Virus record (IMG/VR): IMGVR_UViG_3300035204_002230
Coordinates: 1-31,599 of that record
Length of the DNA: 31,599 nt
Strand: one strand, 5' to 3'
DNA from: a virus
Shown here piece after piece: positions 71 to 23,742 of this stretch. Below the pieces are notes generated by a model. It saw only the letters and a program-made list of their open reading frames with translations. It ran no database searches and had not been told where the DNA came from. Numbering within the stretch: the stretch's first letter is position 1; each line of letters begins with the position of its first letter. Position numbers and translations under genes: made by a program.

Positions 71-250
71 CTATCTTAAATCCCTGACAAAATCATAGAA
101 CTCTTGCCGAGTTAAATCTTCTCTATCGAGAAATGCACCAGACATGCGCGCTGTCTTCATAGTACTGTCGTGCTTAACATCCATAAGTAGAACAAGCAAG
201 TTGCATAAATATCTATGTGAGTAAAGATAGTCAGCTAATCTGGGAAGCAT
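71..250 (-). pseudogene. GTP cyclohydrolase I (FolE)-like C-terminal remnant
   Basis: The minus frame is open from an ATG at 250 to a stop at 71-73. Its last 38 residues, from MDVKHDS at 184, read like the extreme C-terminus of GTP cyclohydrolase I: a DVKHDS segment, a MSGAFLD block and a TRQEFYDFV ending, the order in which FolE has its MRGV, G-x-F and R-x-EF elements. The catalytic and zinc-binding part that should precede it is absent; the region upstream is instead the start of the plus-strand SET gene at 217. I infer a truncated folE left by recombination or decay. The residues upstream of 184 do not resemble FolE. A short functional gene of another kind is possible. Confidence 0.45.
205..211 (+). 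promoter_or_regulatory. T4-late-like box ATAAATA
   Basis: ATAAATA lies five bases before the GTG start at 217 and no Shine-Dalgarno sequence fits between. In T4, late transcription starts about six bases after the box, so this mRNA would be leaderless. Confidence 0.6.
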
Positions 251-708
251 ACGATACTATAGAGAACGTTCCCTATGTTGTTCGGGATGCTGGATCAAAG
301 GGCAAGGGGGTATTTGCGACTCGAGAGATTAAAAAAGGTGTAGAGTTTTTAACGACTCCATCTGCGACAACTATATCCGATGAAGATTGGAAAATATTGA
401 AGCAAACCAGATTTCCTGAAGTTTATGGATTTAAGTGGGGCAATGGACATTCTGCATTTTTAGGTGATGAGCTTCCTAATTGGATGACACCGGAAGAGAA
501 AAAATTGGTAGGGCAGACTGTTTTAAGAAATGGATTACATCCATGGAATTTTGTTAATGATGGGGGTAATGATGCTAATGCTTCTGAAAAATTTGAATCT
601 AATGTGTCGATTATGACAGCATTAAGAGATATTCAACCGGATGAAGAGATTACTAAAGGCTATAATGAGAAAATAAATTACGCATCTAGTTGGGAAGAAA
701 TACCATAA
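217..708 (+). CDS. SET-domain-like protein with capsid-targeting-like N-terminus
   Basis: A 163-residue protein. Residues 1-11 carry DSQLIWEAY, the opening shared with genes starting at 5010, 20133 and 21790 in this window. The rest resembles a small SET domain: GSKGKGVFATREIKKG at 27-41, an N-F-V-N-D-GG-NDAN stretch at 111-121 where SET proteins have the NHSxxPN cofactor motif, and RDIQPDEEITKGYN at 137-150 matching the GEExTxDY end. SET domains usually transfer a methyl group from S-adenosylmethionine to lysine. The NHS motif is degenerate, so activity is uncertain. The start is GTG, directly behind a late box and without a ribosome site. A second SET gene follows at 785. If the N-terminal peptide is a prohead-protease signal, cleavage after E10 would leave the SET part inside the capsid. 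Confidence 0.65.
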   Translation: MSKDSQLIWEAYDTIENVPYVVRDAGSKGKGVFATREIKKGVEFLTTPSATTISDEDWKILKQTRFPEVYGFKWGNGHSAFLGDELPNWMTPEEKKLVGQTVLRNGLHPWNFVNDGGNDANASEKFESNVSIMTALRDIQPDEEITKGYNEKINYASSWEEIP

Positions 709-711
709 ATA
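705..711 (+). promoter_or_regulatory. T4-late-like box ATAAATA
   Basis: ATAAATA overlaps the stop of the first SET gene and ends five bases before GTT at 717, the spacing seen before real GTG starts elsewhere. It probably serves the second SET gene. Confidence 0.5.
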
Positions 712-716
712 ACTAT

Positions 717-785
717 GTTGATAGCCAAATTGTCGATAAATTTGGCGACAAAACTCCTGAACAATTACAATCAATGCTAGGGTAA
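717..785 (+). other. 22-codon frame with capsid-targeting-like peptide, no standard start
   Basis: From GTT at 717 the frame reads (V)DSQIVDKFGDK and ends SMLG before TAA at 783-785, which overlaps the ATG of the second SET gene (TAATG). The peptide resembles the DSQLIWEAY openings of neighbouring genes and sits at the usual distance from a late box, but the first codon is GTT instead of GTG. It may be a rare-start leader, or the former N-terminus of the second SET protein cut off by a point mutation and stop. Confidence 0.35.
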
Positions 786-1138
786 TGGTAGAATTCGGTC
801 CCAGTAACATAAACGGTAATGGCCTCATTGCTACGCGGTCTATACCTGCAGGTACCGAAATAGGTATTTCCCATCAAATTGATGAAAATCTTAAAGGTAT
901 AACTGTAGGTGGGTGGAAAATGAATCGCCCTATAGGCAACTACAATCACTCTTATACCCCTAATTGTTATCTTAAAGATTACAATGACTGCAAGACTTTA
1001 GTTGCAGAAAAGGATATTGCGATAGGTGAAGAACTTACTGCAGACTATACCTTAGCGCTCGAGTTCGAACAACCCATGTCGTGGTTTAAAGGTACACCTT
1101 CATTCAGACAATTCTTTAATGAACAAGAAGATGGTTGA
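785..1138 (+). CDS. SET-domain protein (putative lysine methyltransferase)
   Basis: A 117-residue protein that is almost entirely a SET domain: a GNGLIATRSIPAGTEIG block at residues 11-27, NYNHSYTPNC at 52-61 matching the NHSxxPNC cofactor-binding motif, and GEELTADY at 81-88 with the catalytic-type tyrosine. The motifs are cleaner than in the SET gene just upstream. Known SET domains methylate lysines using S-adenosylmethionine; the substrate here is unknown. ATG at 785 overlaps the TAA of a short frame, so translation may be coupled. The protein lacks the capsid-targeting-like peptide unless the upstream frame is fused to it by frameshifting. Confidence 0.7.
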   Translation: MVEFGPSNINGNGLIATRSIPAGTEIGISHQIDENLKGITVGGWKMNRPIGNYNHSYTPNCYLKDYNDCKTLVAEKDIAIGEELTADYTLALEFEQPMSWFKGTPSFRQFFNEQEDG

Positions 1139-1204
1139 AAGAGTCATCACTTAGCCTAAATAATTAAAGATCCGCGGGATAACCCACGGAGTGATACGGC
1201 ACTC

Positions 1205-1558
1205 ATGGGAAAATTTAATGAAAATCGTCGCTTAGCTTTCCTACCCTCAGGAAACCATCTTTACCTACATTTTTTAGTACTTATACATTGGATCATTGTA
1301 ATTGGCAATCTCGGTGCAATGATCGCACTACCTATATTATGCTTAACTGGCGATGTTGCATGGTATATAGTTTTTCCCTTAATGACGTGGCTTTCTGTGT
1401 CGGCATGTACTAGAATTAATTGTCCTTTTACAAACTATGAAAACAAGGTTCGTAAGAGACTAGGTAAACCACCGGTTAGTGGATTTATTAAGCACTATTT
1501 TTATAGTCCTTATATCCTTAAGCCAATGAAAGCTAAAAGAAGGTCAAACAGAAAGTAA
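1205..1558 (+). CDS. DUF2784-like small membrane protein
   Basis: A 117-residue protein with two or three hydrophobic segments (about 22-48 and 53-70), then a CPFTNYENKVRKRLGKP block and GFIKHYFYSPYI. This order (membrane segments, Cys-Pro-x-T-x-x-E-N, basic stretch, HY motif near the end) matches DUF2784, a bacterial membrane family of unknown function. ATG at 1205 is the first good start; GGAG at 1188-1191 is rather distant. The gene ends six bases before the ClpP-like gene, suggesting cotranscription. Confidence 0.6.
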   Translation: MGKFNENRRLAFLPSGNHLYLHFLVLIHWIIVIGNLGAMIALPILCLTGDVAWYIVFPLMTWLSVSACTRINCPFTNYENKVRKRLGKPPVSGFIKHYFYSPYILKPMKAKRRSNRK

Positions 1559-1564
1559 TAAATT

Positions 1565-2341
1565 ATGAGTGAAGAAAAAGAACTTAGAACACAAAAAGAA
1601 ATCAATGTTGACATTGCTCTTAAAGAAGCTGAAGCTCGCAAAATGGAAGCTGATGCTAAAAATATTGAAGCGATGGTTCGGAAAAACGAATTAGAAGCTG
1701 ATAAAGCTGCTATTGAACTCACATTCAAGCAGATGGACTTGGTTGTCAAAGAAGAGAAGCGCGCTAAAGAGAAAGCTGCCGACGAAGAAAACTTCGTGTA
1801 CCGATTCGGTAACTCAGTAACTGACGGATCTGTCAACTCATGTGTAAAGAAGCTTACAGAGTGGAGTCGACTGAACCCTAAGTGTAACATGGAGATTATA
1901 TTCTCATCTCCTGGTGGTGGTATCATTGAGGGCTTTGAGCTGTTTGATCATATACAGCACTTACGCAATCAAGGCCATCACATTACTACTGGTACACTAG
2001 GTATGGCTGCATCGATGGCTGGCATCCTACTACAAGCAGGTGACACACGCTGGATCGGTCAGCAAGCATGGCTTATGATCCATAGAGCAGCCTTTGGCGC
2101 ATATGGTAAAACATTTGAAATTGAAGATGAGGTTAAGTTCGTTAAACGAATTGAAGAGCGTATCTTAGACATCTTTACTAGTAGATCTAATCTCACTCGC
2201 AATAAGATTAAACGTAACTGGGAGAGAAAAGACTGGTGGATCAGCGCAGAAGAGTCTGTCGAACTCAAACTAGTAGATGAAGTAAGAGCAATTTTACCAG
2301 AACATTCTGTAAATAAGAAGAAGAGGAGAAAGAAGAAATGA
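1565..2341 (+). CDS. ClpP-like serine protease with N-terminal coiled coil
   Basis: A 258-residue protein. Residues 1-75 are charged and heptad-like (likely coiled coil), absent from ordinary ClpP. From about 77 the ClpP/crotonase fold appears: SSPGGG at 114-119 (oxyanion strand), GMAASMAGI with nucleophile Ser150, MIHRAA with His173, and ERKDWWIS with Asp223. The spacings (23 and 50 residues) fit the ClpP triad. The C-terminus is a lysine/arginine tail. ClpP peptidases degrade proteins delivered by Clp ATPases; phage ClpP relatives can also act as head-maturation proteases. A ClpC-like ATPase is encoded at 28318-30786, making a partner plausible. The stop overlaps the next small frame (ATGA). 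Confidence 0.85.
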   Translation: MSEEKELRTQKEINVDIALKEAEARKMEADAKNIEAMVRKNELEADKAAIELTFKQMDLVVKEEKRAKEKAADEENFVYRFGNSVTDGSVNSCVKKLTEWSRLNPKCNMEIIFSSPGGGIIEGFELFDHIQHLRNQGHHITTGTLGMAASMAGILLQAGDTRWIGQQAWLMIHRAAFGAYGKTFEIEDEVKFVKRIEERILDIFTSRSNLTRNKIKRNWERKDWWISAEESVELKLVDEVRAILPEHSVNKKKRRKKK

Positions 2342-2409
2342 AATTGCCGTTAACCGCAATATTGGAAGTAGAGTTTGATGAAAAATCGCAAGGAGACAAC
2401 AGTGAATGA
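2338..2409 (+). CDS. Small hypothetical ORF (23 aa)
   Basis: ATG overlaps the TGA of the ClpP-like gene as ATGA, a typical translational-coupling arrangement. The peptide starts MKLPLTAILEVEF and has no recognised family. It overlaps the next gene by 8 bases. Position is the only real support. Confidence 0.35.
   Translation: MKLPLTAILEVEFDEKSQGDNSE
2390..2395 (+). promoter_or_regulatory. Shine-Dalgarno AAGGAG for the GTG at 2402
   Basis: AAGGAG lies six bases before GTG at 2402. It is one of the few clear ribosome sites in the window and supports that small gene. Confidence 0.55.
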
Positions 2410-2512
2410 GTGTTTGAGTGGCGACATTAACTGGAGAGATATCCAGGAGCAGCAAGGGTGGGATGACTTCCTAGCCTGGTGTCATGAGCAAGAAAACACT
2501 GCTCATGAATAA
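2402..2512 (+). CDS. Small hypothetical protein (36 aa)
   Basis: A GTG start preceded by AAGGAG. The peptide contains INWRDIQEQQGWDDFLAWC and is acidic and Trp-rich; no family recognised. It overlaps the preceding ORF by 8 bases and the following gene by 8 bases, consistent with a coupled string of small genes after clpP. Confidence 0.5.
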   Translation: MNECLSGDINWRDIQEQQGWDDFLAWCHEQENTAHE

Positions 2513-2702
2513 TACTAGTAAATTAAAAGCTAGAGAGCAAGCTGAAGCATATCTACGGCAAATTCGATCTATCCCTCACGCTGAAGCTTTACTAGTTATG
2601 GAGAACTTGTTAGCTGAAATTCAAATGCTACGTGAGGTACATTATTCGGACCATGAGCAATGCTGTGGAAAATGTAGTTGCGATAAACCTCTAGATGATT
2701 AA
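2505..2702 (+). CDS. Small hypothetical protein with Cys-rich end (65 aa)
   Basis: I take ATG at 2505, which overlaps the previous stop, over ATG at 2484, seven codons upstream inside the previous gene. The sequence is helical and charged (KLKAREQAEAYLRQIRS), ending with CCGKCSCDKP, a cluster of four cysteines that could bind a metal. Function unknown. Confidence 0.55.
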   Translation: MNNTSKLKAREQAEAYLRQIRSIPHAEALLVMENLLAEIQMLREVHYSDHEQCCGKCSCDKPLDD

Positions 2703-2712
2703 ATATCTAATG

Positions 2713-2720
2713 GTTAAATA
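2713..2720 (+). promoter_or_regulatory. T4-late-like box GTTAAATA
   Basis: The box ends six bases before GTG at 2727. A second, similar ATTAAATA copy lies just upstream, near 2698-2705. Confidence 0.5.
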
Positions 2721-2726
2721 TCTCAC

Positions 2727-3050: not shown

Positions 3051-3052
3051 CT

Positions 3053-3631
3053 ATGTACAACTTAAAGCTTTTAATAATAAGTACTGTACTAATCGTTTGT
3101 GGAGGGTGTAGTACGCTATTACCTAGTAAGTCTACTAGCTCACAAGCACAATGGAAATCATATCAAGATATTGAAACCCTCGCTAACCATATACATGCAG
3201 GTCAAACACTGGATGATCTCAAAACTCTCGGCATCGATGTTAAAAATACTCCCAATATGGAATCACTTACTCATTTAGATATTGCCAAACGGTTTGGTCT
3301 AATTGGAAGACGAGATGAATCTCTTGTTATCCCCGCGGGTGTTAAAAAGTTAATGGATGCAGCTGAGAAAGGTAAGGGTTATGAATTAACCGTTGAATCG
3401 ACCCAACATAACCGGCTTGGTAGCTTTTGGGCTGATTTTCTACAATTCAGAAAAAATGTGCACACTACAGGATGGACATTTTCTATGCTCTTAATTGTAG
3501 TAGACGATAAAGTAGAGTATGTTCTTTATAAAGGAAATCCTAACATTGATAAGTTAGAAAAGGAAAAGAACCCTCTCGGGCCCTTTCAAAAGATCAGCGG
3601 TTATATTATAGTTGACCTATTAGCCGATTAA
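3053..3631 (+). CDS. Putative lipoprotein (192 aa)
   Basis: The N-terminus has a short basic region, a hydrophobic stretch (LLIISTVLIV) and CGGCST, which resembles a signal peptidase II site with lipidated Cys19, although the -3 position (Cys) is not canonical. The mature part is soluble, with ETLANHIHAGQTLDDLKTLGID and a late segment likely to be beta-rich (FSMLLIVVDDKVEYVLYKG). No enzyme motif seen. It is probably anchored in the host envelope. The gene overlaps the convergent minus-strand gene by four bases. Confidence 0.6.
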   Translation: MYNLKLLIISTVLIVCGGCSTLLPSKSTSSQAQWKSYQDIETLANHIHAGQTLDDLKTLGIDVKNTPNMESLTHLDIAKRFGLIGRRDESLVIPAGVKKLMDAAEKGKGYELTVESTQHNRLGSFWADFLQFRKNVHTTGWTFSMLLIVVDDKVEYVLYKGNPNIDKLEKEKNPLGPFQKISGYIIVDLLAD

Positions 3632-5010
3632 TTTAACTCTTCTGGGGAGCGTTTAATCTGACCATATAGAGGGTCTTGAGGATCCATTTCTCCATATGGA
3701 TTACCTTCTTGTGGAAACTCATCAGCACCATAATCAGCTGGTGGTCTGTCACCTCGTTCAACGGCTTTATCTTCAGCATGGTCTACCATCTCATCAAAAT
3801 GAGACTCTAAGTGGTCTTCAACAGCTGCTTTTAACTCATCGCGCTCATCTAAATACTCATCGTAATCTAAGCGCTTAGGTAGTTTACCAGCTTTTTGCAT
3901 GTCATGTATAACCATTCCTGCTAAATCATCTAACAAGTCGGGATGTACATCTTTCAAACTGTTTACTTTTGCATGTAGAAGTTCTTGATCAAGCCAATCA
4001 GCACCGGCTTTGATTACATCGTCACTATACCATTCAATAACTTCTTCAGCACTCCAGTCAGGAGATTCACCGAAACTATTTTCATTAACAGCAGCTTTGC
4101 TACTATGATCTTCATTTTGCTCTGCAACACCACCGAATACCTTTTTGAGTGCACTCATTATCTTACTTGGTATACCATTTTTTTTCTTTTTTAGAATACC
4201 AACTTTGACTTTAGGTTTCTTGTCATCTAATAGATCGTCGTTCATCTTAATAGCAACCCCGTGAGCATGGTCACCTGGTACACCACATCCACAATCTTCT
4301 TTTACATTAGCTGATTCATAAGGTACATCGTCTTCAGGGTTAAGATCATCTACATCAACTGGCTCTTCTTCACCATTAATATGACTAAGGTCACTGATAT
4401 GTACAGCAACTCGATCACCTTGTTCTAGTCCATCCTCCATGTCTTCAGACAATTCAATAATACCATGCGTCCCAGCTGGCGACATCTCAATTACTTCACC
4501 TTTACCGCCACCCACGCGTGGGTTAATTTCTACTAAATCTCCTTCTTCAAACGATTCTAACTCTTCTCCTTCATCATCAAGCTCTTGTGGCTCTACCCTG
4601 GCCAATGGCTCTAAATCTTCAGGTCCTTCGTATTGACCATGAGAAAGGTCGTCTTCTTCTCCAATTTTGTAAGCAGCGTTTACTGCAACTTGAGGTCGCT
4701 GCCCGCCTTGTTGCGCTGCTAGTTGAGCCTTGGCTCTTCTCATGGCTTCAGCCTCAATGTTTGCTTGAGCGTTTAGATTCAAATTCGGATTCATAGCTAC
4801 CCGTTTGTTGACCTTCGCATTCCAGCGCTTGACAGCATTCCATACGCCCGTCTTACCTTCGAGGTCTTTTATAGGTTTGTCATAATCGATCACTTCCTTT
4901 TGGCCGCCAAACAATCCTCGGCGATGACCGAATTTTCTTTCTTCAGCCTCATTTACTACTGCTTCTTTGGTGTAAGCTTCCCAGATTAATTGTTCGTCAT
5001 GTGGTTTCAC
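3628..5010 (-). CDS. Acidic protein with capsid-targeting-like N-terminus (460 aa)
   Basis: The frame is open to 5124, but the likely start is GTG at 5010, five bases after a late box, giving M-KPHDEQLIWEAY. That opening matches genes at 217, 20133 and 21790 and contains I-W-E, the T4 prohead-protease pattern (L/I)xE. A basic segment (about 20-60) is followed by an Ala/Gln-rich helix, a very acidic region, an SH3- or KOW-like stretch (GDLVEINPRVGGGKGEVIEM), a CGCGVPGDHAHG cluster and an acidic C-terminus with DEYLDERDELKAAVEDHLES. It may be an internal head or core protein; no direct homologue is recognised. Confidence 0.7.
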   Translation of the reverse strand: MKPHDEQLIWEAYTKEAVVNEAEERKFGHRRGLFGGQKEVIDYDKPIKDLEGKTGVWNAVKRWNAKVNKRVAMNPNLNLNAQANIEAEAMRRAKAQLAAQQGGQRPQVAVNAAYKIGEEDDLSHGQYEGPEDLEPLARVEPQELDDEGEELESFEEGDLVEINPRVGGGKGEVIEMSPAGTHGIIELSEDMEDGLEQGDRVAVHISDLSHINGEEEPVDVDDLNPEDDVPYESANVKEDCGCGVPGDHAHGVAIKMNDDLLDDKKPKVKVGILKKKKNGIPSKIMSALKKVFGGVAEQNEDHSSKAAVNENSFGESPDWSAEEVIEWYSDDVIKAGADWLDQELLHAKVNSLKDVHPDLLDDLAGMVIHDMQKAGKLPKRLDYDEYLDERDELKAAVEDHLESHFDEMVDHAEDKAVERGDRPPADYGADEFPQEGNPYGEMDPQDPLYGQIKRSPEELN

Positions 5011-5015: not shown

Positions 5016-5022
5016 TATTTAT
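5016..5022 (-). promoter_or_regulatory. T4-late-like box ATAAATA (minus)
   Basis: On the minus strand ATAAATA is followed by CTTAC and then GTG at 5010, so a leaderless or nearly leaderless mRNA is expected. Confidence 0.6.
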
Positions 5023-5029
5023 TGTCAGA

Positions 5030-8580: not shown

Positions 8581-9195
8581 TTATCCAATTACTACTGCTT
8601 TTATGTATTTGGAACCGAAAGTAGTCGCGCTCCCCTCACCATCTGAATTCCAATCTCTATAACCACCAGCGCCCAATTGCACAACTACGGTATTAGAAGT
8701 TAAAGATGTAACTACGCCACCTACTTCATCCGACCCACCGTCCTGATTATCACCCTCATCAATTCTCTGGGCATTTGTGTCGGAAGCGGAACTGTTAACA
8801 TATACCTGCACAATAACGTCGGTTGTTCCTAGATTATGAGTAATTGTATGAGTTGATCCGTTCGCTACAGTAACACTACCGTGAGAAGTAGCCCAATCTG
8901 CAACGTATTTATTCACAGTTGCTGCAGTTGTTTGCTCAGTACCGTCCGGGAATTTATAACTATCAGCGCTAACCGAACCGACAACAGTTAAGCTTTGTGC
9001 TGGTGTATTATGACCAATGCCAACTTTAGTAGATGAATTGATGAATACAATTCCACCGCTTACCTCTAAGAAAGTGGTTTCCTGATTACCTGCTCTTTTA
9101 CCGCGCCAATAATCACCCTTTAGATACACCATCCCAGCCCCGGTATCTGTATCCGAAGGTGTAGAAGTTACATCTGTAAATATAATTTTACTCAT
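8581..9195 (-). CDS. Tail-fibre-like protein (204 aa)
   Basis: The N-terminal 40 residues (MSKIIFTDVTSTPSD then GAGMVYLKGD) match the starts of the fibre-like genes at 13864, 12570 and 11935, suggesting a shared virion-attachment module. Next comes KVGIGHNTPAQSLTVVGSVS, the VGIGTxxP repeat common in phage fibres, then a beta-rich C-terminal domain (HTITHNLGTTDVIVQVYVN) that may bind the host surface. Its ATG overlaps the previous stop as ATGA. It is the last gene of the fibre operon. Confidence 0.75.
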   Translation of the reverse strand: MSKIIFTDVTSTPSDTDTGAGMVYLKGDYWRGKRAGNQETTFLEVSGGIVFINSSTKVGIGHNTPAQSLTVVGSVSADSYKFPDGTEQTTAATVNKYVADWATSHGSVTVANGSTHTITHNLGTTDVIVQVYVNSSASDTNAQRIDEGDNQDGGSDEVGGVVTSLTSNTVVVQLGAGGYRDWNSDGEGSATTFGSKYIKAVVIG

Positions 9196-9386
9196 TCAAC
9201 GTATTCCCATGCACCTCTAAACGTACGATCAGTAGGTAGCTCTGACTTATCTATTACCTGATGAGGTTTACCAGCTGGAACATCCTTTTCAATAATCTCT
9301 TCTAGCGTCAACCCACAGTTAGCTACAGGGATCAGAACACTTACCCCACCGTCATCATTAGGATATATTACTCTTTTATCTTCCAT
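9192..9386 (-). CDS. Small tail-associated conserved phage protein (64 aa)
   Basis: Starts with RVIYPNDDGGVSVLIP and ends in ELPTDRTFRGAWEYVE. This YPNDxGGVxVxxP / PTDRTFRxAWE pattern is a familiar short phage protein encoded beside tail-fibre genes; its role is unclear. It has one of the few strong ribosome sites of the region (GGAGGT at 9393-9398) and overlaps the upstream stop by one base. Confidence 0.7.
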   Translation of the reverse strand: MEDKRVIYPNDDGGVSVLIPVANCGLTLEEIIEKDVPAGKPHQVIDKSELPTDRTFRGAWEYVE

Positions 9387-9649
9387 TATCTTACCTCCGG
9401 TTTATCACCTAGACAACCAGGCCATTGAGTTTGTAACTCACCTGGTTCGTCAACATGGCTAATGTCTATTAAAGTTACATCTCTCAGCTCTTGCTTCTTA
9501 GCTGCAACTTCTGCTTGCTTATCTTGGTCACCCGACTCAACAGCCCGCATAAATTCTACATCAAGACCCTCAAGTAAAGGTATACGAGCTGCTCGCCATT
9601 GGTCCTGCCAAATCTTTCGCGCTTTGTCCATGTTTACTTGTATACTCAT
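9386..9649 (-). CDS. Tail-associated conserved phage protein (87 aa)
   Basis: ATG at 9649 is chosen over 9673 because a late box ends exactly five bases upstream. The product (MSIQVNMDKARKIWQDQWR, LLEGLDVEFMRAVESGD, KKQELRDVT) resembles short proteins next to fibre genes in many phages, often annotated as tail-fibre assembly or structural proteins. Mostly helical and charged. It is followed without gap by the 64-residue gene. Confidence 0.6.
   Translation of the reverse strand: MSIQVNMDKARKIWQDQWRAARIPLLEGLDVEFMRAVESGDQDKQAEVAAKKQELRDVTLIDISHVDEPGELQTQWPGCLGDKPEVR
9393..9398 (-). promoter_or_regulatory. Strong Shine-Dalgarno GGAGGT
   Basis: Located six bases before ATG 9386 and inside the end of the upstream gene. 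It shows that the host or phage system does use Shine-Dalgarno pairing, in contrast to the leaderless-looking genes. Confidence 0.6.
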
Positions 9650-9654
9650 AAAAT

Positions 9655-9662
9655 TATTTAAT
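9655..9662 (-). promoter_or_regulatory. T4-late-like box ATTAAATA (minus)
   Basis: The box ends five bases before ATG 9649, inside the fibre operon, so the last three genes may also have their own late transcript. Confidence 0.5.
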
Positions 9663-9709
9663 TTAAGTCCCAAATTTAATCTGAGAAGAACACTACTTGT
9701 ACTCTGTTG

Positions 9710-10726
9710 TCATTTTCCCATAAACATCGCATTAACTAGAATAAAATCATAGTAGCCCAATCTAGGTAAGTAAGTGCCGATCTCGCAGCTTGTCTCGGTT
9801 TGGCCTGTACTATAGTTAGTACTGGCTGATGTCAAAACTTTTGCTACTGGTGCGTAACTCGCATGATCATATCCACATCCAAATGTAGTAGCATAAGTCG
9901 AAGTAGACATTGCTGTTGCAAATACTACTCTATACGCACCAGTTCCGATATCTACTAGACTAGAAACATTATAACTATCATTAATTGATACTGTACCAGT
10001 ACCGTTAAAGGTTATCCATGCTTTAGCAATAGGAACCGCACTAAGAGTAATGTTGTTGTTACCATGAATTACAAGTGGTGTGGCTGTAATACCTCTAGCA
10101 TATTCATTCGATACACCAAAATGTAATTGTGAACCGTCTGCATCAGCATATGACCCAATACGGCTTACAGGGCCCGAGGCTGGATTAGTTTTATCATACC
10201 CAAAGTCAATAGTTGTATAATACCCGACCTGATACGTTGAGTCTATATATATTGCACCTTTTTCAGGTGTATCACTTCGTGCACCACTTGGTGCAAATGT
10301 CGCCAATTGGTTAGGAGCAGTAATATGCAGAGGTGATAATGGTGTTGCTGTCCCGATACCGACCTTATCTGAAGTATTAATTGTAACTATTTGACTACCA
10401 TTACTATCCCAACCAGCAGACTTATTGGGATCATCAGGTGCATCTAATACTAAATCACCAGTTGATAGAATTTCCATTGTTGATCCCGATTCAAGCTCGA
10501 TACCACCATATACCTGATACTGGGTGCGACCACTTACAGTTTCAGTCTCAGTGCCTAAGAGTCGATTTTTTGCTGCAAATCCACTACCACCACCACTACC
10601 ACTACCACTACCACCAGTTTGCGCTCCCCACTGCAAAAGACCTGTACCAGAATTATATATAAGAACCTGAGTATTACTAGCACCGGTTGTATCTATACGC
10701 GTTAATGGTATTTTTTGTGTTGCCAT
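9710..10726 (-). CDS. Large tail-fibre-like protein (338 aa)
   Basis: The longest fibre-like protein of the operon. N-terminal module MATQKIPLTRIDTTGASNTQ and a QVLIYNSGTGLLQW stretch, a flexible Gly/Ser linker (about 36-49), a TMEILSTGDLVLDAP beta block, KVGIGTATPLSPLHI (VGIGTxxP repeat, about 119-132), then a long Ser/Thr/Gly-rich beta region ending with a distinct C-terminal domain (about 250-338) that is a candidate receptor-binding tip. The low-complexity linker produces shadow frames on the other strand. The start follows the upstream stop by three bases. Confidence 0.75.
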   Translation of the reverse strand: MATQKIPLTRIDTTGASNTQVLIYNSGTGLLQWGAQTGGSGSGSGGGSGFAAKNRLLGTETETVSGRTQYQVYGGIELESGSTMEILSTGDLVLDAPDDPNKSAGWDSNGSQIVTINTSDKVGIGTATPLSPLHITAPNQLATFAPSGARSDTPEKGAIYIDSTYQVGYYTTIDFGYDKTNPASGPVSRIGSYADADGSQLHFGVSNEYARGITATPLVIHGNNNITLSAVPIAKAWITFNGTGTVSINDSYNVSSLVDIGTGAYRVVFATAMSTSTYATTFGCGYDHASYAPVAKVLTSASTNYSTGQTETSCEIGTYLPRLGYYDFILVNAMFMGK

Positions 10727-10729
10727 GGT

Positions 10730-11068
10730 TTAATATAAGCGTTTCGGGTATTTTTCTTTTACTGCTTGTCTACGAGCCTGAAGCTCATCTAAATCACCGT
10801 CAAGTAATGCATGAACACACTCTTCAATTGAAGGGTATTCCTTTTTACGATATTGACGATATTGGAGCTGTTCTTTAAGAAGTTTAAGCCTTTCAACTTC
10901 ATCAATAACTTCTTGCTCGGTAGGTTTTTCATGTACATCATCTCGCCATTCTAACCCACTGTATACATTGTCGCTGACCGCCCACGCTGCACCAGGTCGT
11001 AACGATTCTAGCGCCATCGATATAGTAATCGAATCGCCGCGTTCAATACGTTGTTGTATTTCATCCAT
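10730..11068 (-). CDS. Tail-fibre chaperone-like protein (112 aa)
   Basis: Contains SLRPGAAWAVSDNVYSGLEW and, at the C-terminus, a RKKEYPSIEECVHALLDGD block followed by ARRQAVKEKYPK. The YPS(I/W)xE...AVKxKYP ending resembles XkdW-like/tail-assembly proteins placed beside fibre genes. A second copy of this end occurs in the gene at 12592-13140. Role as chaperone or tail adaptor is inferred from position and pattern. Confidence 0.55.
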   Translation of the reverse strand: MDEIQQRIERGDSITISMALESLRPGAAWAVSDNVYSGLEWRDDVHEKPTEQEVIDEVERLKLLKEQLQYRQYRKKEYPSIEECVHALLDGDLDELQARRQAVKEKYPKRLY

Positions 11069-11069
11069 A

Positions 11070-11630
11070 TTACGCTCCTATCTCCATTGCTATCCCTACT
11101 ATAGTATGATACTCCATACCTACCTGTACAGTACCTGTTGCAGCTGAAAAATATAATTTATACGATACTTCCGAAGTAGTGTTAGGTGAATGTAAATACT
11201 GACATGCTAAATTTGTACCTTGTCCGTATGCGGAATGATCAGACCAACCAGCAGAAAGAATTGCAGCTGAGGTTCCGGGAACCTCACTATAAAGCCATTG
11301 GCTAAATTGCGCGGAAGCTCCTCTCGCCTTGCCCATAAAAGAGACTAACACTTTACTAGTTGCTAGTGTCGGTGTAATGCTAACTACATATCGAGATGCA
11401 ATACGGTTAGATGTTCCGGTCATAGATATGTCTTGACTACCGTATTCAGATTGAACTACTTGTACTAGTTTACCGGTCCCAGTAAAGTTTGAAAGTGTAT
11501 GAGCAGTAGCACCAGCACCACTAAGAGTACCAGCAGACGTTAATATCATCTGAGTAGTATTATTCGTCTGAAATACTAAATCACCTTCATTATCTTGTGT
11601 TACAATATTATTAACGTTTAAAGTACTCAT
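11070..11630 (-). CDS. Tail-fibre-like protein (186 aa)
   Basis: ATG at 11630 overlaps the upstream stop as ATGA and is preferred to the frame start at 11642. MSTLNVNNIVTQDNEGDLVF followed by TTQMILTSAGTLSG is a known beta-type fibre beginning. The rest is Ser/Thr/Gly-rich with a beta-sandwich-like C-terminus (SEVSYKLYFSAATGTVQVGM). Probably an alternative or accessory fibre. Confidence 0.65.
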   Translation of the reverse strand: MSTLNVNNIVTQDNEGDLVFQTNNTTQMILTSAGTLSGAGATAHTLSNFTGTGKLVQVVQSEYGSQDISMTGTSNRIASRYVVSITPTLATSKVLVSFMGKARGASAQFSQWLYSEVPGTSAAILSAGWSDHSAYGQGTNLACQYLHSPNTTSEVSYKLYFSAATGTVQVGMEYHTIVGIAMEIGA

Positions 11631-11935
11631 ATAATTGTCCAATATGACCCACTACCAATAGTTATAGTGGCACCACTATCAATAGTTAGCGGCCCTGCAC
11701 TAAATGCATTGATATTTGTAGGTATAGTAGTGGTTTCTGAAATTGTTTGTGCATTATATCTAATAATGCCCTGTGTATCTACTGCAGGGTTACCAACTAA
11801 CTTCTCAGAAGAGTTACCTCTCTTCATGTACATACCCTCGTAACCTGATCCATCTGATTTAGAGAATACCTGAGTGGAGCCATTACTGACATCACCCATA
11901 GTGTTTTCTAGATCGTCTACTACTATTCTACTCAT
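11627..11935 (-). CDS. Short tail-fibre-like protein (102 aa)
   Basis: N-terminal module MSRIVVDDLENTMGD...TQVFSKSDGSGYEG shared with its operon neighbours, followed by a short beta stretch ending ATITIGSGSYWTII. The last part resembles collar or trimerisation segments of fibre proteins. Its ATG overlaps the upstream stop. Confidence 0.65.
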   Translation of the reverse strand: MSRIVVDDLENTMGDVSNGSTQVFSKSDGSGYEGMYMKRGNSSEKLVGNPAVDTQGIIRYNAQTISETTTIPTNINAFSAGPLTIDSGATITIGSGSYWTII

Positions 11936-12570
11936 GATGCTTGTATTTCCATTAGTGTTAGCGATGGCCCAGATGCATCTCCCGGTGGACCCAGTGTTGT
12001 TTCTCCAAAGGTGAATGCGTTTATCTTTCCAGCAGCTACATCAGATGCCTGGCAATAGGCCTGAAATGAATACCTATATGTACCTGCACCGCTAGGTGCA
12101 TCTACAACGCTGTGGACACATTCCACGTTCATTTCATTATCAACAAAGGAACTGTACCTTTGGGATTTTACTTGCCAGTCGGCTGGTAAAGTGGCAGTAC
12201 TCAGGGCGCAAACTACGCGATTATGACACCATATTAGAGTTCCAGCTGAATAGGAAGCGCCTGCTATAAAATTTAAATCAGAATTTAACTGAATAAGTAC
12301 AGTGCTGTTTTCTCTAATGGTGAAATCAGTTGAAAGAATAGTTGTATATGATTGGTTTCCTTTAGGTAAAGTAATCGCTGATAATGATCCATTAAGAGCA
12401 GCTCCTACATGTTTAACTTGTATTATACCACCAGCGGCTGGTATCACTTTCTCTGCACTACCATATGTCTGAGTATACAGATTACCATCAGTCTTAGAAT
12501 ACACTTGAGAACTACCACTAGTGACAGAAATCGGTGAGCTTCCCTGATTGTTAAATATTAAACTACTCAT
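11932..12570 (-). CDS. Tail-fibre-like protein (212 aa)
   Basis: N-terminal module MSSLIFNNQGSSPIS, then SSQVYSKTDGNLYTQT, matching the sister genes. The remaining 150 residues are predicted beta (TVLIQLNSDLNFIAGAS, YRYSFQAYCQASDV) and contain four cysteines. It is probably a jelly-roll receptor-binding domain. An ATAAATA copy lies about 20 bases before the ATG, inside the preceding gene, so a leadered late transcript is possible. Confidence 0.65.
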   Translation of the reverse strand: MSSLIFNNQGSSPISVTSGSSQVYSKTDGNLYTQTYGSAEKVIPAAGGIIQVKHVGAALNGSLSAITLPKGNQSYTTILSTDFTIRENSTVLIQLNSDLNFIAGASYSAGTLIWCHNRVVCALSTATLPADWQVKSQRYSSFVDNEMNVECVHSVVDAPSGAGTYRYSFQAYCQASDVAAGKINAFTFGETTLGPPGDASGPSLTLMEIQAS

Positions 12571-12591
12571 TTTCTTATGTTATATAGGTAT

Positions 12592-13140
12592 TTATCCCTC
12601 ATTACTAGAAATAAAGGTTCCCGGTGGTATACTATACTCACCTCCGACGGTTGCGAATGTATCTGATAAGCCAGGCATAGCTCCAAGATAATCACGTATC
12701 TCATCAGTTATCTTAACCGAGCTTTCTATACCTTCTGACCACGATACAATATCAGCAACTATACCGCCAGCAATTATAGCAGCATATTCACTTCCTCGTG
12801 GATATAATACCTCTGGATCATAGAGATCTGGCTTTGGATATTTCTCTTTAACTGCCTGTCTTCGTGCATTAATCTCATCCATTCCACCATCGAGTTGTGC
12901 ATGGTGAATCTCTCCCCATGTAGGATACTCCTTTCTGCGTGAATGCAAAATTTCAGCAAGATTTGATTGATCGTATGCTAGGCGTGCAACTGAGGCTAGC
13001 TCTCGATCCGTAGGTTGAGGTTCACTACGATGCCACTCTACAATGCCAGTATTCGATATAACACAATCTTTAGAATCGTGACCGCTTCCGATTCGAATGT
13101 CTGGAAACAAAAGTTGTAATTTTAAATTTAAATGTTTCAT
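12592..13140 (-). CDS. Fibre-chaperone-like protein with XkdW-like segment (182 aa)
   Basis: After VISNTGIVEWHRSEPQPTDREL comes SRRKEYPTWGEIHHAQLDGG and ARRQAVKEKYPKPDLY, close to the end of the 10730-11068 protein. An extra C-terminal region (about 110-182, Gly/Ser/Pro-rich, ending PPGTFISSNEG) is not seen in the other copy. It may be a fusion of a chaperone-like module with a further structural domain. It lies one base after the fibre gene at 13142. Confidence 0.55.
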   Translation of the reverse strand: MKHLNLKLQLLFPDIRIGSGHDSKDCVISNTGIVEWHRSEPQPTDRELASVARLAYDQSNLAEILHSRRKEYPTWGEIHHAQLDGGMDEINARRQAVKEKYPKPDLYDPEVLYPRGSEYAAIIAGGIVADIVSWSEGIESSVKITDEIRDYLGAMPGLSDTFATVGGEYSIPPGTFISSNEG

Positions 13141-13141
13141 C

Positions 13142-13864
13142 TTAATCTGCGCTTACTAAATGACCTGAAAAGACCGCGGTAACTGCCCTGGCATTAACTC
13201 CTCCGTTATATACCGATGCATATGCTAAACTTCCCGCGCTGAGCCATACTGTACCACTAGCGTTTAGGCGGTGATCTGAATGGCCACCATTATTATTCAT
13301 ACCTACAGCTATTGCGAGATAATGCTCAATTTCAGTAATAGAAGAAACATATATGAGATATGTAGCATGGCTCTTATCAAGCTCTACATCATCATGAAAC
13401 GTATGTGAACTGAAATGATACCACCCATTAACAGGTGCTTTAAATCTTTGATATTCTGTTTGCCAGTGATCAGCAAGCCCGGCAGCGGCGCCAGGTCCAC
13501 CATAAGCTCCATCACCTTCACCATACGGTCCGTTGGAATGTACGGTGCTTAAGTTTTCCATTTTAGTTGTACTACCTCCAGCCATTGCAAAGCTACCATA
13601 ACTTTCTACATGAAAGCCGTGGTGAGCTCCCTTATAGTAGCTAGTAGGTGATGCACTCACAGTACCTGCAACAGTTAAGGTAGTAGCTGGCGCAGTCGTC
13701 CCGATGCCGACTCTACCACCACTAAGAACTATCATTTCCATTTCCTGGTTACTAGCATCTTTAGCATATAATTTACCAGTGTCAGACTTAGTATACACCA
13801 TTGTCGACCCAGCCGGTTGTGATGTCGGTGTATTATCTAATTGGTTAAATATAATTTTACTCAT
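13142..13864 (-). CDS. Tail-fibre-like protein with C1q-like tip (240 aa)
   Basis: The start (MSKIIFNQLDNTPTSQPAGS, then TMVYTKSDTGKLYAKD) is the best copy of the shared attachment module. RVGIGTTAPATTLTVAGTVS follows, then a C-terminal domain with YQRFKAPVNGWYHFSSHTF, resembling C1q/TNF-like jelly rolls that act as trimeric binding heads. It is the first intact gene of the operon; a frameshifted fragment (13874-14067) lies directly upstream. No clear ribosome site. Confidence 0.75.
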   Translation of the reverse strand: MSKIIFNQLDNTPTSQPAGSTMVYTKSDTGKLYAKDASNQEMEMIVLSGGRVGIGTTAPATTLTVAGTVSASPTSYYKGAHHGFHVESYGSFAMAGGSTTKMENLSTVHSNGPYGEGDGAYGGPGAAAGLADHWQTEYQRFKAPVNGWYHFSSHTFHDDVELDKSHATYLIYVSSITEIEHYLAIAVGMNNNGGHSDHRLNASGTVWLSAGSLAYASVYNGGVNARAVTAVFSGHLVSAD

Positions 13865-19615: not shown

Positions 19616-19616
19616 T

Positions 19617-19811: not shown

Positions 19812-19816
19812 ACAAT

Positions 19817-20080: not shown

Positions 20081-20114
20081 ATAAGAAATTTATGGTTGTA
20101 AATGTCAAAGATCC

Positions 20115-20122
20115 ATTAAATA
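20115..20122 (+). promoter_or_regulatory. T4-late-like box ATTAAATA (plus)
   Basis: Ten bases before ATG 20133. Confidence 0.45.
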
Positions 20123-20132
20123 ATTACACTAA

Positions 20133-20993
20133 ATGCGCGATAGAGACTCTCAACTTATATTTGAACGATATTGTCACGGTATAATTTCTGAAGAAATTGC
20201 CGACCCTGTAGCTTGGGATAGAGGAGGTATAATAAAATTAAATATTACTGGGCATGACCTTGAATTTAAAATAACCGGCAAAAACAGCGACAAAAATAAC
20301 AACTGGTACTTTAATATAGTACCTATGAAGGACTACAGTTCACTTGGCCCGATAGCAAACATTGGAACCAGTCCTGGTGACGGGGAGAATGCCGCTGCGA
20401 AGGAAATATTATACAATACAAAAACACCCATTAACGTATATAAACAAGTTCTTACAGGTCAAGAATTCCCTAAGAATGCACCAACTGCAACTGTAAAAGT
20501 GGTAGATTATAACTCAGGAATAGCTACTGGTGGTGGTACTGGTGGTGGTACTGGTGGTGGTACTGGTGGTGGTACTGGTGGTGGTACTGGTGGTGGTACT
20601 GGTGGTAGTGCTGGGGGTGCAGTTACTAGTGGATCTCGCGGAAGAGGTAGACATCAAGGACTATGGCACGACGATCCAAAGTATAAATATGGCTTAGGTG
20701 CACAACTTGCAAAAAGAGGAATGTTTGCAAAAAGTGACTGGGGGAATCGATTAGGTACTGGTGTGATCGCGAACAAGGCTGAACAAATGTTCCAAAACTT
20801 GTTAGCTCCTCGAAATAATGAAAAACGTACAGGAGTATCAAGATACGCGACCACGCCACAGGACCGCGCGGCTGCCGCCCGTCGACCAGAACCGGGTAGT
20901 AAAATGCGTCATGGGTGGGAAGGGCCTGAAAGAGAAACTCGCAGAGGTAGAACTAGGTATGCTACATCTGCAGATGTGCGACGTGGGGCTTAA
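20133..20993 (+). CDS. Gly-Thr-repeat protein with capsid-targeting-like N-terminus (286 aa)
   Basis: Starts MRDRDSQLIFERY, the same opening as proteins at 217 and 5010, with I-F-E matching the T4 prohead-protease pattern. Residues about 25-125 are a compact domain (KLNITGHDLEFKITGKNSD). Residues about 132-157 are TGGG repeats from a 12-base tandem repeat. The C-terminal 130 residues are basic (SGSRGRGRHQGLWHDD, RRPEPGSKMRHGW, ERETRRGRTRY), suited to DNA or RNA binding. I infer a DNA-associated internal head protein. It overlaps the convergent gene at 20990 by four bases. Confidence 0.65.
   Translation: MRDRDSQLIFERYCHGIISEEIADPVAWDRGGIIKLNITGHDLEFKITGKNSDKNNNWYFNIVPMKDYSSLGPIANIGTSPGDGENAAAKEILYNTKTPINVYKQVLTGQEFPKNAPTATVKVVDYNSGIATGGGTGGGTGGGTGGGTGGGTGGGTGGSAGGAVTSGSRGRGRHQGLWHDDPKYKYGLGAQLAKRGMFAKSDWGNRLGTGVIANKAEQMFQNLLAPRNNEKRTGVSRYATTPQDRAAAARRPEPGSKMRHGWEGPERETRRGRTRYATSADVRRGA
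20526..20609 (+). repeat. 12-base tandem repeat (six exact copies plus one variant)
   Basis: The unit ACTGGTGGTGGT is repeated without change from 20526 to 20597, followed by a variant copy. It encodes TGGG repeats. The lack of silent differences suggests recent slippage expansion. Confidence 0.9.
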
Positions 20994-21790
20994 TAATCAC
21001 TCATTGAACTAGAACCTAGCCCGTAACCACCAAGTTCTCTCTCCCAATAATCGTCCGCTGCATAGCGAGAATCTTCAACTTCTCCCCCTACATCAACAAC
21101 TTTGTCTTCTGTATCTTCTTCCTCCTCTGGAATAAAGATACCATCACTTTGAAGCAGTTCGTTAGCTAGTGTTTTAGCTTCATCAAGAGACATCTCAGCT
21201 CTTAAGACATTAATAATATCTCTACCGGTTGCAGAAAATCCACCACCAAATTTTTGTAACAGTAAATCATGAGCTTTGTAGGCATCAGAATCAGGAGTAA
21301 CTCCTGACTCGCGATTAATTTCGTATGTATGTCTGTATTGAAGGTCAACCGCGCGCTCAACACTTTTCTCAACTTCTTTCTCAACTTCTTTTTCGTCAAC
21401 ATCATTGATGGTTACTTGTTGAGTTGCACCATCTATAGAAATTATTTTTAACCGCTTTAGGGCATTCGTAACAACACGAGATACATATCCAGCATTAGCT
21501 TTACCAATACCAGCTGAATCTCTAATTGACTGAATAATATCTACTCTAAACTCTTTGAATGTACCGTCATAATGACTATTTTCATGACTAGATAAAAAAG
21601 CTTTAACAGCGTCAACTACGTCATTTATAAGCTCCGGAGTAGGTACTTGATATTTCTTAAGTCTATCAATTTCATCACTATCAAATTGAGCAGCTACATC
21701 ATCTGTATCCCAAGCTTCACCAGGGTCTACAGGAGCTTCATATATTTTTCTATAAGCTTCGAACAATAAATTGCGGTCGAGATCTTTCAC
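20990..21790 (-). CDS. Hypothetical protein with capsid-targeting-like N-terminus (266 aa)
   Basis: Opens MKDLDRNLLFEAYRKIYEAP: L-F-E fits the (L/I)xE cleavage pattern, and MK-x(5)-LLFEA resembles T4 internal-protein signals. The body is helical, with DEIDRLKKYQVPTPELINDVVDAV and GKANAGYVSRVVTNALKRL (helix-turn-helix-like), a coiled stretch (DEKEVEKEVEKSVERAV), and an acidic then Tyr/Gly/Ser-rich end. GTG 21790 follows a late box by five bases. Probably a core or packaged protein; no homologue named. Confidence 0.65.
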   Translation of the reverse strand: MKDLDRNLLFEAYRKIYEAPVDPGEAWDTDDVAAQFDSDEIDRLKKYQVPTPELINDVVDAVKAFLSSHENSHYDGTFKEFRVDIIQSIRDSAGIGKANAGYVSRVVTNALKRLKIISIDGATQQVTINDVDEKEVEKEVEKSVERAVDLQYRHTYEINRESGVTPDSDAYKAHDLLLQKFGGGFSATGRDIINVLRAEMSLDEAKTLANELLQSDGIFIPEEEEDTEDKVVDVGGEVEDSRYAADDYWERELGGYGLGSSSMSDY

Positions 21791-21795
21791 GTAAT

Positions 21796-21802
21796 TATTT
21801 AT
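21796..21802 (-). promoter_or_regulatory. T4-late-like box ATAAATA (minus)
   Basis: Five bases before GTG 21790, divergent from the box at 21812. Confidence 0.6.
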
Positions 21803-21811
21803 GTTTCAAGA

Positions 21812-21818
21812 ATAAATA
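21812..21818 (+). promoter_or_regulatory. T4-late-like box ATAAATA (plus)
   Basis: Seven bases before ATG 21826. Confidence 0.5.
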
Positions 21819-21825
21819 TTAATAT

Positions 21826-22113
21826 ATGTCTAGTAAATTTGACAATCTAATTAACGATACTTTTGCCGAATTAGTGCAAGAAGTAACTGCCGCGCCAGCT
21901 CCAGAAGAAGTTGCTAATAATCCAGATTTGCTACTCCAACAACAAGCTGTCGCACTAAAAGCATCTGGCAGACCGCTTAATCCTAAAGAAAAAGAAGTTG
22001 TAAGAAAGGCAGAAGAGCTGGAAAAATCATCTCCACAAAAATCCGCTCAGATCCTTAAGGATGTAGAGGAAAAAGAGGAAGCCGAGCAAGATATAGAAGC
22101 AGCAACTCCCTAA
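21826..22113 (+). CDS. Acidic Ala/Glu-rich helical protein (95 aa)
   Basis: Begins SSKFDNLINDTFAELVQE and continues with highly charged low-complexity helix (AEELEKSSPQKSAQILKD, EEKEEAEQDIEAATP). Its composition resembles phage scaffold or core peptides. It lies between two genes with capsid-targeting-like starts, fitting a head-core role, but no family is recognised. Confidence 0.55.
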   Translation: MSSKFDNLINDTFAELVQEVTAAPAPEEVANNPDLLLQQQAVALKASGRPLNPKEKEVVRKAEELEKSSPQKSAQILKDVEEKEEAEQDIEAATP

Positions 22114-22140
22114 GGGACCGAAAGAATACGACCTAATACA

Positions 22141-23742
22141 CTATGTTACTCGCTCTATCTCGAGAGTAGCTTGAACATACCCATTACTACGAGCAGATAA
22201 CATAACATTCTTTATATCAGGACCTTGTTCAACTCTAGTAGTTATTTCCACTTTATTTGAAGTGTTATTATCTTTGATGTTAATAACTGGCTCTTCACCA
22301 CCTTCTACAGGATATAGGGCAACAGCTCCTTTTTCGGTAAATTTTTCTGGCTCACTTATACCGGATCCTTGTTTATTAGCTATAACTTTAAAGAATGTCG
22401 GATTAACACCTGCCAAGCTCATGCCAAATCCTATTGCTCCGATAATAACATCATCCAACTTGCCTTTATCAGCGCGATTGAACAAAAAATCAACAAGCTT
22501 AAGAGATGCAAACTTTTTGCGTAGTCTGTCAGAGTCTTCTTCTAATGTTAATGTATCGCTAGGTACATCATACATCATACGAACATCTGTAGCCTTTATA
22601 TTAATTTGATTAGAAATATTATTCCTCAATCTTGCGACTTCAGCTGCTAGCTGTACTTCGTCTAATTCTTGATCAGATATGCTCAAGTTATATGGTTTAT
22701 CTTTTGTACCTTCATTAATGAACTTTTTCAAAAAATCTTTTGCTTTACCGCCTTGAGCGTTTTGAAACTTTAAAGAAATAGATACTAATGCTCGGTCAAT
22801 GTCACCCCAATTAGATATAAACAAATCATTCAACAAATTTAGATTTGACTCCTCTCCTGGATTCATTTGAATCTCGTTCAACGTATCTTGGATCTTTGAT
22901 TGCATCTTTGGATTAATAAGATAGATATCGCCAGGATTCCATTTGTCAGATGGAAACTTAGTTATTAACCTGCCAGCTTTTCTAACATCATGAAAGATAC
23001 TACCTCGAGTTGGTATCCAATTCCTGTATGGAGATTCTATGAGAGTCACCGCTTGTGACAAAGGTTGATTAAGTTCATGCCTGAATTTAGCTATATTACC
23101 ATTACCTTCAATATCTCCTAGAAATTTACTTATCTGTTCAAGCGCTGATTCAGTTTCACCTTCGAATTGCTCATTCACAGCCTCTCTTAACTTGAGACGT
23201 ACAGCTTCAAAATTTTCTTTCGTTACCGGATCGGTATGTTTCAGTGCAAAAAATAGTGACACTAAACCTTCTTTTACCTCCGTACTCGACTGGCCTGCTT
23301 TTTCCTCTTTAAACTGTCCTGTTTTTAGTAAGTGACCTACCGATACTTTTATTGTGTTACCACCATCTGACACATCAATAGTCGGCCATGTACTAGATTT
23401 AGGAGCAACACCGTCAGGCATATTATTGATAAAATCTATAAGTTTATCTTTATTGACAATAAGTGATGAGTTAAATGTATCGATACCATATCTTTTGTGA
23501 TGAGATTTATGTATTTTAATATCGGTGTCGATATCTGATATCAATTCAATAAGACGTTTTCTGTATTTGTTCCAGTTAACAGACCCTGCTCCGAAGTTAG
23601 GAATCTTCATCGCTGTCTCTTCTGTATATAGACTTAAATAAGCTTGGCCCAGAGTATTAAATGATGATTCATGCGGTGTTATATCTTTATGATAAGATGT
23701 ACCAGTTCGGTAAACTTCGGAGAGAGTTTTAAATCGTTTCAT
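22141..23742 (-). CDS. Large hypothetical protein, possibly internal virion (533 aa)
   Basis: Opens MKRFKTLSEVYRTG, in which L-S-E|VY aligns with the LIWE|AY starts of its neighbours. The rest is soluble alpha/beta with no motif I can name: AMKIPNFGAGSVNWNKYRKR early, GHLLKTGQFKEEKAG and RNWIPTRGSIFHDVRKAGR in the middle, and a beta-rich end (VEITTRVEQGPDIKNVML). A late box precedes the ATG by six bases. Together with the genes at 20133-22113 it may be part of the head interior. Confidence 0.6.
   Translation of the reverse strand: MKRFKTLSEVYRTGTSYHKDITPHESSFNTLGQAYLSLYTEETAMKIPNFGAGSVNWNKYRKRLIELISDIDTDIKIHKSHHKRYGIDTFNSSLIVNKDKLIDFINNMPDGVAPKSSTWPTIDVSDGGNTIKVSVGHLLKTGQFKEEKAGQSSTEVKEGLVSLFFALKHTDPVTKENFEAVRLKLREAVNEQFEGETESALEQISKFLGDIEGNGNIAKFRHELNQPLSQAVTLIESPYRNWIPTRGSIFHDVRKAGRLITKFPSDKWNPGDIYLINPKMQSKIQDTLNEIQMNPGEESNLNLLNDLFISNWGDIDRALVSISLKFQNAQGGKAKDFLKKFINEGTKDKPYNLSISDQELDEVQLAAEVARLRNNISNQINIKATDVRMMYDVPSDTLTLEEDSDRLRKKFASLKLVDFLFNRADKGKLDDVIIGAIGFGMSLAGVNPTFFKVIANKQGSGISEPEKFTEKGAVALYPVEGGEEPVINIKDNNTSNKVEITTRVEQGPDIKNVMLSARSNGYVQATLEIERVT

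Follow-up and report, generated by a model that had tools for sequence, protein, structure and literature searches.

A shared N-terminal peptide on unrelated proteins of uncultured T4-like phages as a probable capsid-targeting signal

Why would proteins that have little else in common begin with the same short peptide? The IMG/VR virus fragment IMGVR_UViG_3300035204_002230, whose whole length of 31,599 bases we analysed and call the window, raises this question through a set of genes that an earlier note had likened to those of the T4 internal proteins, which carry an N-terminal capsid-targeting sequence (CTS) cleaved by the prohead protease gp21. The peptide, which we term the tag, has the consensus D-x-[QKN]-L-I-[WF]-E-[AS]-Y with its Glu at residue 9–13, and it is not mentioned in the literature that we searched. 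Our analysis suggests that the tag is probably a capsid-targeting propeptide that is removed by a protease, resembling the T4 CTS in its working and differing from it in sequence.

The tag in the window and its recurrence

Translation places the tag at the N-termini of four window proteins: VSKDSQLIWEAY at 217 on the plus strand (start GTG; peptide at 217–252), VKPHDEQLIWEAY at 5010 on the minus strand (GTG), MRDRDSQLIFERY at 20133 on the plus strand (ATG) and VKDLDRNLLFEAY at 21790 on the minus strand (GTG). The pattern [DE]xx[LIMF][LIVM][WFY][ED]xY was found inside the first 20 residues of four of the 51 window proteins taken into the count, with 0 copies in their other 7,935 residues, and shuffling the first 40 residues of the window proteins produced it 0 times in 300 rounds. 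In the window the motif is commoner than chance would allow, and the earlier note's statement that the bodies behind it are unrelated holds there. A fifth protein that the note had included, starting at 23742 on the minus strand (ATG), reads MKRFKTLSEVY and is a looser match. It has no acidic residue six positions before the Glu (E-6), and is nearer to an MK-x-F type of N-terminus than to the QLIWE type. We rejected the proposed sixth member, at 717, because its short frame VDSQIVDKFGDKTPEQLQSMLG (717–785, plus) opens with GTT, which is not a start codon, ends after 22 codons and has a motif that is one residue short. The TAA closing this frame overlaps the ATG of the next open reading frame (ORF), at 785. 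An intact late-promoter box, CATAAATA, lies just upstream (704–711, plus), and the box together with the bases that immediately follow is similar to positions 204–235; the 717 frame may be a decayed copy of the tag.

Beyond the window, we scanned IMG/VR for the tag three times. At the DNA level, QLIWEAY returned 34 stretches, about 20 of which were set aside as an unrelated internal match inside one other phage protein family. In the remaining stretches the peptide lies 3–8 residues past the start codon, mostly with a NATAAATA box just upstream. The second and third scans used broader patterns, demanded both a late box and a start codon, and had local ORF calls added. The scans yielded at least 93 non-redundant tagged proteins from uncultured T4-like phages, mostly with unrelated bodies. 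The tag Glu is residue 9–13 in all but one of them (residue 17), and the residue at E-6 is acidic in 92 of the 93 among the matches listed, and in 50 of 51 in the sets from the first two scan patterns, which did not demand acidity. A permuted decoy of equal codon degeneracy matched 8 IMG/VR stretches, compared with at least 120 for the tag, and in 15 records the counts were 0 and 28. In six genomes, which apart from the window were chosen for carrying at least one copy and one of which (G001, 236 kb) alone holds 11–12, the strict motif was 17–125 times commoner at residues 3–14 than in protein interiors. The tag stood within the first 20 residues of 30 proteins, and elsewhere there were 4 copies in about 215,000 residues. 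(G numbers denote the IMG/VR contigs and genomes that we compared, and L numbers further tagged relatives.) A protein-based IMG/VR search found no relatives of the 217 or 23742 proteins, and a short-peptide tblastn search with the tag gave no matches.

Is it the peptide that has been kept, or merely the DNA around a promoter and a start codon? Eleven genes of G001 start MND-x-x-[LM]-I-[WF]-[ED]-x-Y ahead of different bodies. Identity among these eleven copies is 74% over the tag DNA and 31% over the 33 nt that follow it, and identical residues share codons at a frequency of 0.50, compared with 0.56 predicted from codon usage. A recently copied cassette of promoter and start codon, in which the peptide has no selected function, would account for the fixed spacing (usually 5 nt) between late box and start codon and for the tandem tagged genes of G001 (38291–40668). 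However, the synonymous codons are randomised while the residues are kept, which argues for purifying selection on the peptide and against recent DNA copying, and untagged late genes carry the same box without the peptide. We give such a cassette almost no weight. On the sequence evidence as a whole, it is close to certain that the tag is an N-terminal signal under selection.

Late expression and candidate cleavage sites

A T4-type late box (NATAAATA) ends 5–6 nt before the start codon of four window genes: CATAAATA at 204–211 (plus; 5 nt before GTG 217), AATAAATA at 5016–5023 (minus; 5 nt before GTG 5010), CATAAATA at 21796–21803 (minus; 5 nt before GTG 21790) and AATAAATA at 23749–23756 (minus; 6 nt before ATG 23742). 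The start codons were placed by means of the late box. A weak box, ATTAAATA at 20115–20122 (plus), ends 10 nt before ATG 20133. Most tagged genes of G001 have a late box directly upstream; an adjacent box is missing from several in G008 and G012. These predicted promoters suggest that the tagged genes are late genes. Across about 200 late genes of G001, G006, G008, G009 and G012, the commonest distance from the end of the box to the start codon is exactly 5 nt. Tail sheath and tube-like genes share this spacing, in contrast to the 14–35 nt of the T4 genes that we looked at. A box at 5 nt would put the predicted transcription start at the start codon itself, which suggests that the late messenger RNAs of tag-bearing phages are leaderless.

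Candidate cut sites are also enriched in those late genes of the same genomes that lack the tag. Of 162 such genes, 23 have the motif [LI]xE[AGSN] in residues 5–26; for non-late genes the count is 52 of 838 (p = 8e-4), and interior windows of the same late proteins gave an average of 9.5 and a highest count of 18, against the 23 at the N-terminus. Many of these N-termini approximate MK-x-F...[LI]xE, for example VKSFIDFINE/A and MNFDKLVKRLTE/A (the slash marks the putative cut), and are close to T4's own CTS. By its N-terminus and late box, the 533-residue protein encoded at 22141–23742 (minus; MKRFKTLSE/VY) fits this second type; homology with a similarly starting 510-residue protein of G012 was not supported. 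A looser and low-confidence candidate, absent from the list in the earlier note, is encoded by the divergent gene at 21826–22113 (plus; MSSKFDNLINDTFAELVQE/VTAAPAP), which has a late box, AATAAATA, at 21811–21818 (plus). This protein reads VQE/V and so falls outside a count by the [LI]xE[AGSN] test.

Where would the tag itself be cut? The earlier note had placed cleavage after the tag's own (L/I)xE, and KDLDRNLLFEAYRKIYEAPVDP is an example of a tag peptide that is a candidate gp21 substrate. We found a second [LIVMF]xE, with its Glu 5–16 residues past the tag Glu, in 63% of 87 tagged proteins, compared with 23% in equal body windows and 33% after segment shuffling; 0 of 5,000 trials reached 63% in either control. 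Of 55 such second sites, 45 begin with L or I, and A, G or S comes directly after the site in 53%, against a background of 20%. It is likely that this second [LI]xE, which the earlier note missed, is often the cleavage site in place of the tag Glu.

The family of the 266-residue protein encoded at 20990–21790 (minus; VKDLDRNLLFEAYRKIYE/APVD) bears on the same question. An alignment of 13 family sequences, which are 17–25% identical to the 21790 protein, has seven invariant columns, five of them in the first 18 residues (D5, E11, A12, Y13 and E18). The second-site Glu is E18, and it is separated from Y13 by a spacer in which family members show insertions and deletions. Most members were found via the tag, so the conservation of D5, E11 and Y13 partly reflects how the set was selected; E18 was in no search pattern. 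An AlphaFold model of the 21790 protein has a low-confidence helix at residues 3–17, within the first 17 residues, followed by disorder and a folded core at residues 52–128. A fold search with this model gave no match at E <= 0.001, only weak winged-helix-like ones, and PHROG comparison gave nothing consistent for the family. In G012:38744 and L098, a common body starts right after IIE/ and VEE/AR, respectively, and the stretch before it differs. The tag Glu is replaced by Asp in two G001 proteins (38735 and 75365), each of which has a second LxE with G or A behind it; this would be expected if a protein needs no more than one usable site.

A gp21-type protease (PF03420) was present in 12 of 12 tested tag-bearing contigs of at least 139 kb. 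One of the 12, G027, has a weak match and its tag may be due to chance, and the matches of G014 and G015 are identical, these contigs probably being near-identical. Most tested contigs shorter than 139 kb had no PF03420 match, as fragments may. We found gp23 in the three genomes tested for it (G001, G006 and G008); that of G001 is about 32% identical to cyanophage gp23 and adjoins gp21 and a gp22-like gene. The readable gp23 propeptides of these relatives end in WC[LI]xE followed by A, G or N (CLRE/A, CLKE/N, CLRE/G, CLNE/A and CINE/A). By analogy with T4 gp23, which is cut after LTE at the corresponding place, these ends would be the cut positions. Genes that the window has in common with G006 and G008 include a RecA/DnaB-like ATPase (41–45%), DUF932 and a ClpA homologue, and the window therefore belongs to the same broad group. 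A ClpP-like protein encoded in the window at 1565–2341 (plus) matches a 'head maturation protease' PHROG. It was not adopted as the prohead protease because the window also encodes a ClpA homologue, so that an ordinary Clp pair is as likely; the ClpP-like protease and the ClpA/ClpB-like ATPase (28318–30786, minus) lie in one fragment.

Proposed head loading, its cargo and competing explanations

We prefer capsid targeting because three lines of evidence agree on it: the statistics of the cut sites, the late-gene context and the occurrence of gp21. The tag, D-x-[Q/K/N]-L-I-[W/F]-E-[A/S]-Y and probably helical, would attach to the scaffolding core while the prohead grows, and any protein carrying it would become part of the head. 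At a late stage of assembly, cleavage by a gp21-type protease would follow [L/I]-x-E, at the tag Glu (IWE/A, IFE/A), at the second site ([LIV]xE followed by A, G, N or S, 5–16 residues downstream) or at both. The released mature body would then stay in the head and be ejected with the DNA into the next host. Packaging, core binding, cleavage, ejection and the host role of the cargo are steps that we infer from sequence. In the window, the cargo would comprise the SET protein (217), the acidic 460-residue protein (5010), the Gly-rich basic protein (20133) and the 266-residue protein with a small folded core (21790), and 23742 and perhaps 21826 would carry the other, T4-like MK-x-F N-terminus. 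With somewhat less confidence than for capsid targeting as such, we lean towards a modular two-part head-loading signal distinct from that of T4, in which DxQLI[WF]ExY is combined with a separable [LI]xE. A single genome would carry it on as many as about 18 proteins, among them protein-modifying enzymes such as those with SET and GNAT domains, and this uncultured T4-like lineage would deliver a large effector set with its DNA.

Most tagged bodies are orphans in Pfam and family searches; those recognised are SET (217), GNAT (G001:50161), PcfJ-like (G001:81633) and RyR (G001:232264). The protein encoded at 217–708 (plus) is, as the earlier note had proposed, a SET-domain protein, with a complete domain at residues 29–149, after the tag (PF00856, E = 3e-8). 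It adjoins a second and different SET-domain gene at 785–1138 (plus; PF00856, E = 1e-10), which is untagged as read, a readable tag being present on the first only. The 460-residue protein at 3628–5010 (minus) reads VKPHDEQLIWEAYTKEAVVNE/AEER and has an orphan acidic body, and the 286-residue protein at 20133–20993 (plus) reads MRDRDSQLIFERYCHGIISE/E and has a Gly-rich repeat and a basic C-terminus. Outside the window, G001:14270 has a weak zinc-peptidase-like match, and its homologue in a 485-kb phage has no tag. A repeated glycine-rich family (AGHIALDVGG...) in G009, L008, L012 and L032 is, in our judgement, probably membrane-active. An ADP-ribosyltransferase likeness of the G001 proteins 34448 and 3059 was unsupported by Pfam and, for 34448, also by a PDB sequence search. 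A tagged protein of G008 (81765–83141) has a twin-arginine-like signal (SRRDFFKLLGRGAA) directly past the tag.

These bodies also bear on two other explanations. The tag might dock its carriers to another part of the virion or its assembly apparatus (portal, tail or baseplate), or to the scaffold only, in which case the proteins would be structural or assembly factors and the [LI]xE sites partly incidental. L116, L140, L151, L163 and G001:73397–74422 combine the tag or a variant with a conserved C-terminal end, ESYxxFIxxIPF, and the G001 member adjoins gp21, which would suit docking; so would the 21790 family, which is conserved over many phages and acidic, as a core protein might be. We nevertheless consider docking unlikely, because the second [LIV]xE followed by A, N, G or S, invariant despite its variable spacing, points to proteolysis by a head protease, and the matched bodies are SET, GNAT, PcfJ-like and RyR, none of them from tail families. 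It is very improbable that the tag binds the phage sliding clamp or the transcription apparatus. QLIFE superficially resembles QLxLF, the bacterial clamp-binding motif, and the tag is associated with late genes. However, the DNA polymerase C-termini of this lineage (DLFDFFK, LDELFS and DLFSILAENE) are unlike DxQLI[WF]ExY, the tag is N-terminal, and family searches matched no tagged protein to a replication or transcription family, or to a tail family.

Several points weigh against capsid targeting. Two of the three IMG/VR scans demanded a late box, which makes their sets unusable for a test of late-gene association, and the co-occurrence of gp21 in 12 of 12 contigs is a count among tag-bearing contigs, whose weight depends on the base rate of gp21 among large IMG/VR phages. 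The gp21-like protease that the earlier note had suggested looking for is present in relatives and is absent from the window, a 31.6-kb fragment. A recognisable second site is wanting in 37% of tagged proteins. The Tyr at E+2 is conserved, and cleavage at the Glu inside the tag would not require it; this Glu may therefore serve in binding. Mature tagged bodies are mostly acidic, with a median isoelectric point of 5.2. We found no homologues in cultured phages for 23742, 5010 or the tagged relatives L071, L181 and L128, and no virion proteomics for the tag-bearing lineage. No match to the tag pattern occurs in T4 or cyanophage Syn19, and the tag is unlike T4's CTS. The earlier analogy with T4 stands as the best explanation and passed those in silico tests that could have overturned it; it does not extend to the sequence of the tag, nor to 23742 as a carrier of the same N-terminal type.

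If capsid targeting is correct, a nine-residue motif would tell which of a large phage's orphan proteins are carried in the particle and are the first to act in the host, among them a putative SET methyltransferase and a putative GNAT acetyltransferase. The tag would mark injected counter-defence and host-takeover proteins of uncultured phages straight from metagenomic sequence, and may offer a new loading signal for phage protein delivery. As to those hosts, DUF1501-like twin-arginine translocation (Tat) proteins and prepilin-type FTLIELLVVIAIIA proteins are encoded in G001 (7124 and 54244) and G008 (63416–65385). Such proteins are typical of Planctomycetes/Verrucomicrobia, hinting at Planctomycetes–Verrucomicrobia–Chlamydiae (PVC) hosts for the tag-bearing group. 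Elsewhere in the window, a transfer-messenger RNA gene at 24518–24918 (minus) encodes a long, 28-residue tag peptide ending in ALA, and a run of proteins at 8581–13864 (minus), several with N-termini like MSxIIFxxLxxTP...GSxxVYxKxDG, are probably tail-fibre or host-contact paralogues.

Comparison with known head-loading systems

In phage P1, an N-terminal signal routes the anti-restriction protein DarB into the head for delivery (PMC9024508). Unlike the tag, it is not reported there as a short linear peptide common to many unrelated proteins, and P1 is an unrelated phage. The ejection proteins of phiKZ, SPN3US and 201phi2-1, which have gp175/gp245-type proteases, are alike in that these are large phages with many head proteins cut after Glu and with ejected sets, and SPN3US gp53 and gp54 have an identical N-terminal 15-mer (PMC5694885). 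Their propeptides are mostly much longer, however, and the specificity is [SA]xE, whereas tag-bearing phages have T4-type gp21 and gp23.

The proteins that T4 injects include the anti-restriction factor IPI* and the ADP-ribosyltransferase Alt. Like the tag, the gp21-cut CTS of IPI, IPII, IPIII and Alt is a short N-terminal propeptide on unrelated bodies, with several cargo proteins per genome; it consists of hydrophobic residues and then [LI]xE, often with Ala next, and the window's relatives have a gp21-type protease. T4 IPI (NC_000866) has MKTFKEF, a spacer and TITE/A, a two-part layout that parallels the tag with its separate downstream cleavage site, and IPII and IPIII read MKTYQEFIAE/A. 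The residues for targeting and processing are partly separable in IPIII: residues 4 and 7 are important in targeting, residues 8 and 10 in processing, and an Asp in position 10 stops processing but not targeting (PMC9026906). The two signals differ in sequence, with MKT[YF]xEF(IAE) in T4 and DxQLI[WF]ExY here, where a conserved Tyr lies beyond the Glu; whether they share an ancestor cannot be told. Unlike in T4, the late box here abuts the start codon, and packaging is a reading of the sequence. The internal proteins of T4 are basic, whereas the tagged bodies are mostly acidic. A single genome here has up to about 18 candidate cargo genes, and the cargo, unlike that of T4, would include SET, GNAT, PcfJ-like and RyR proteins.

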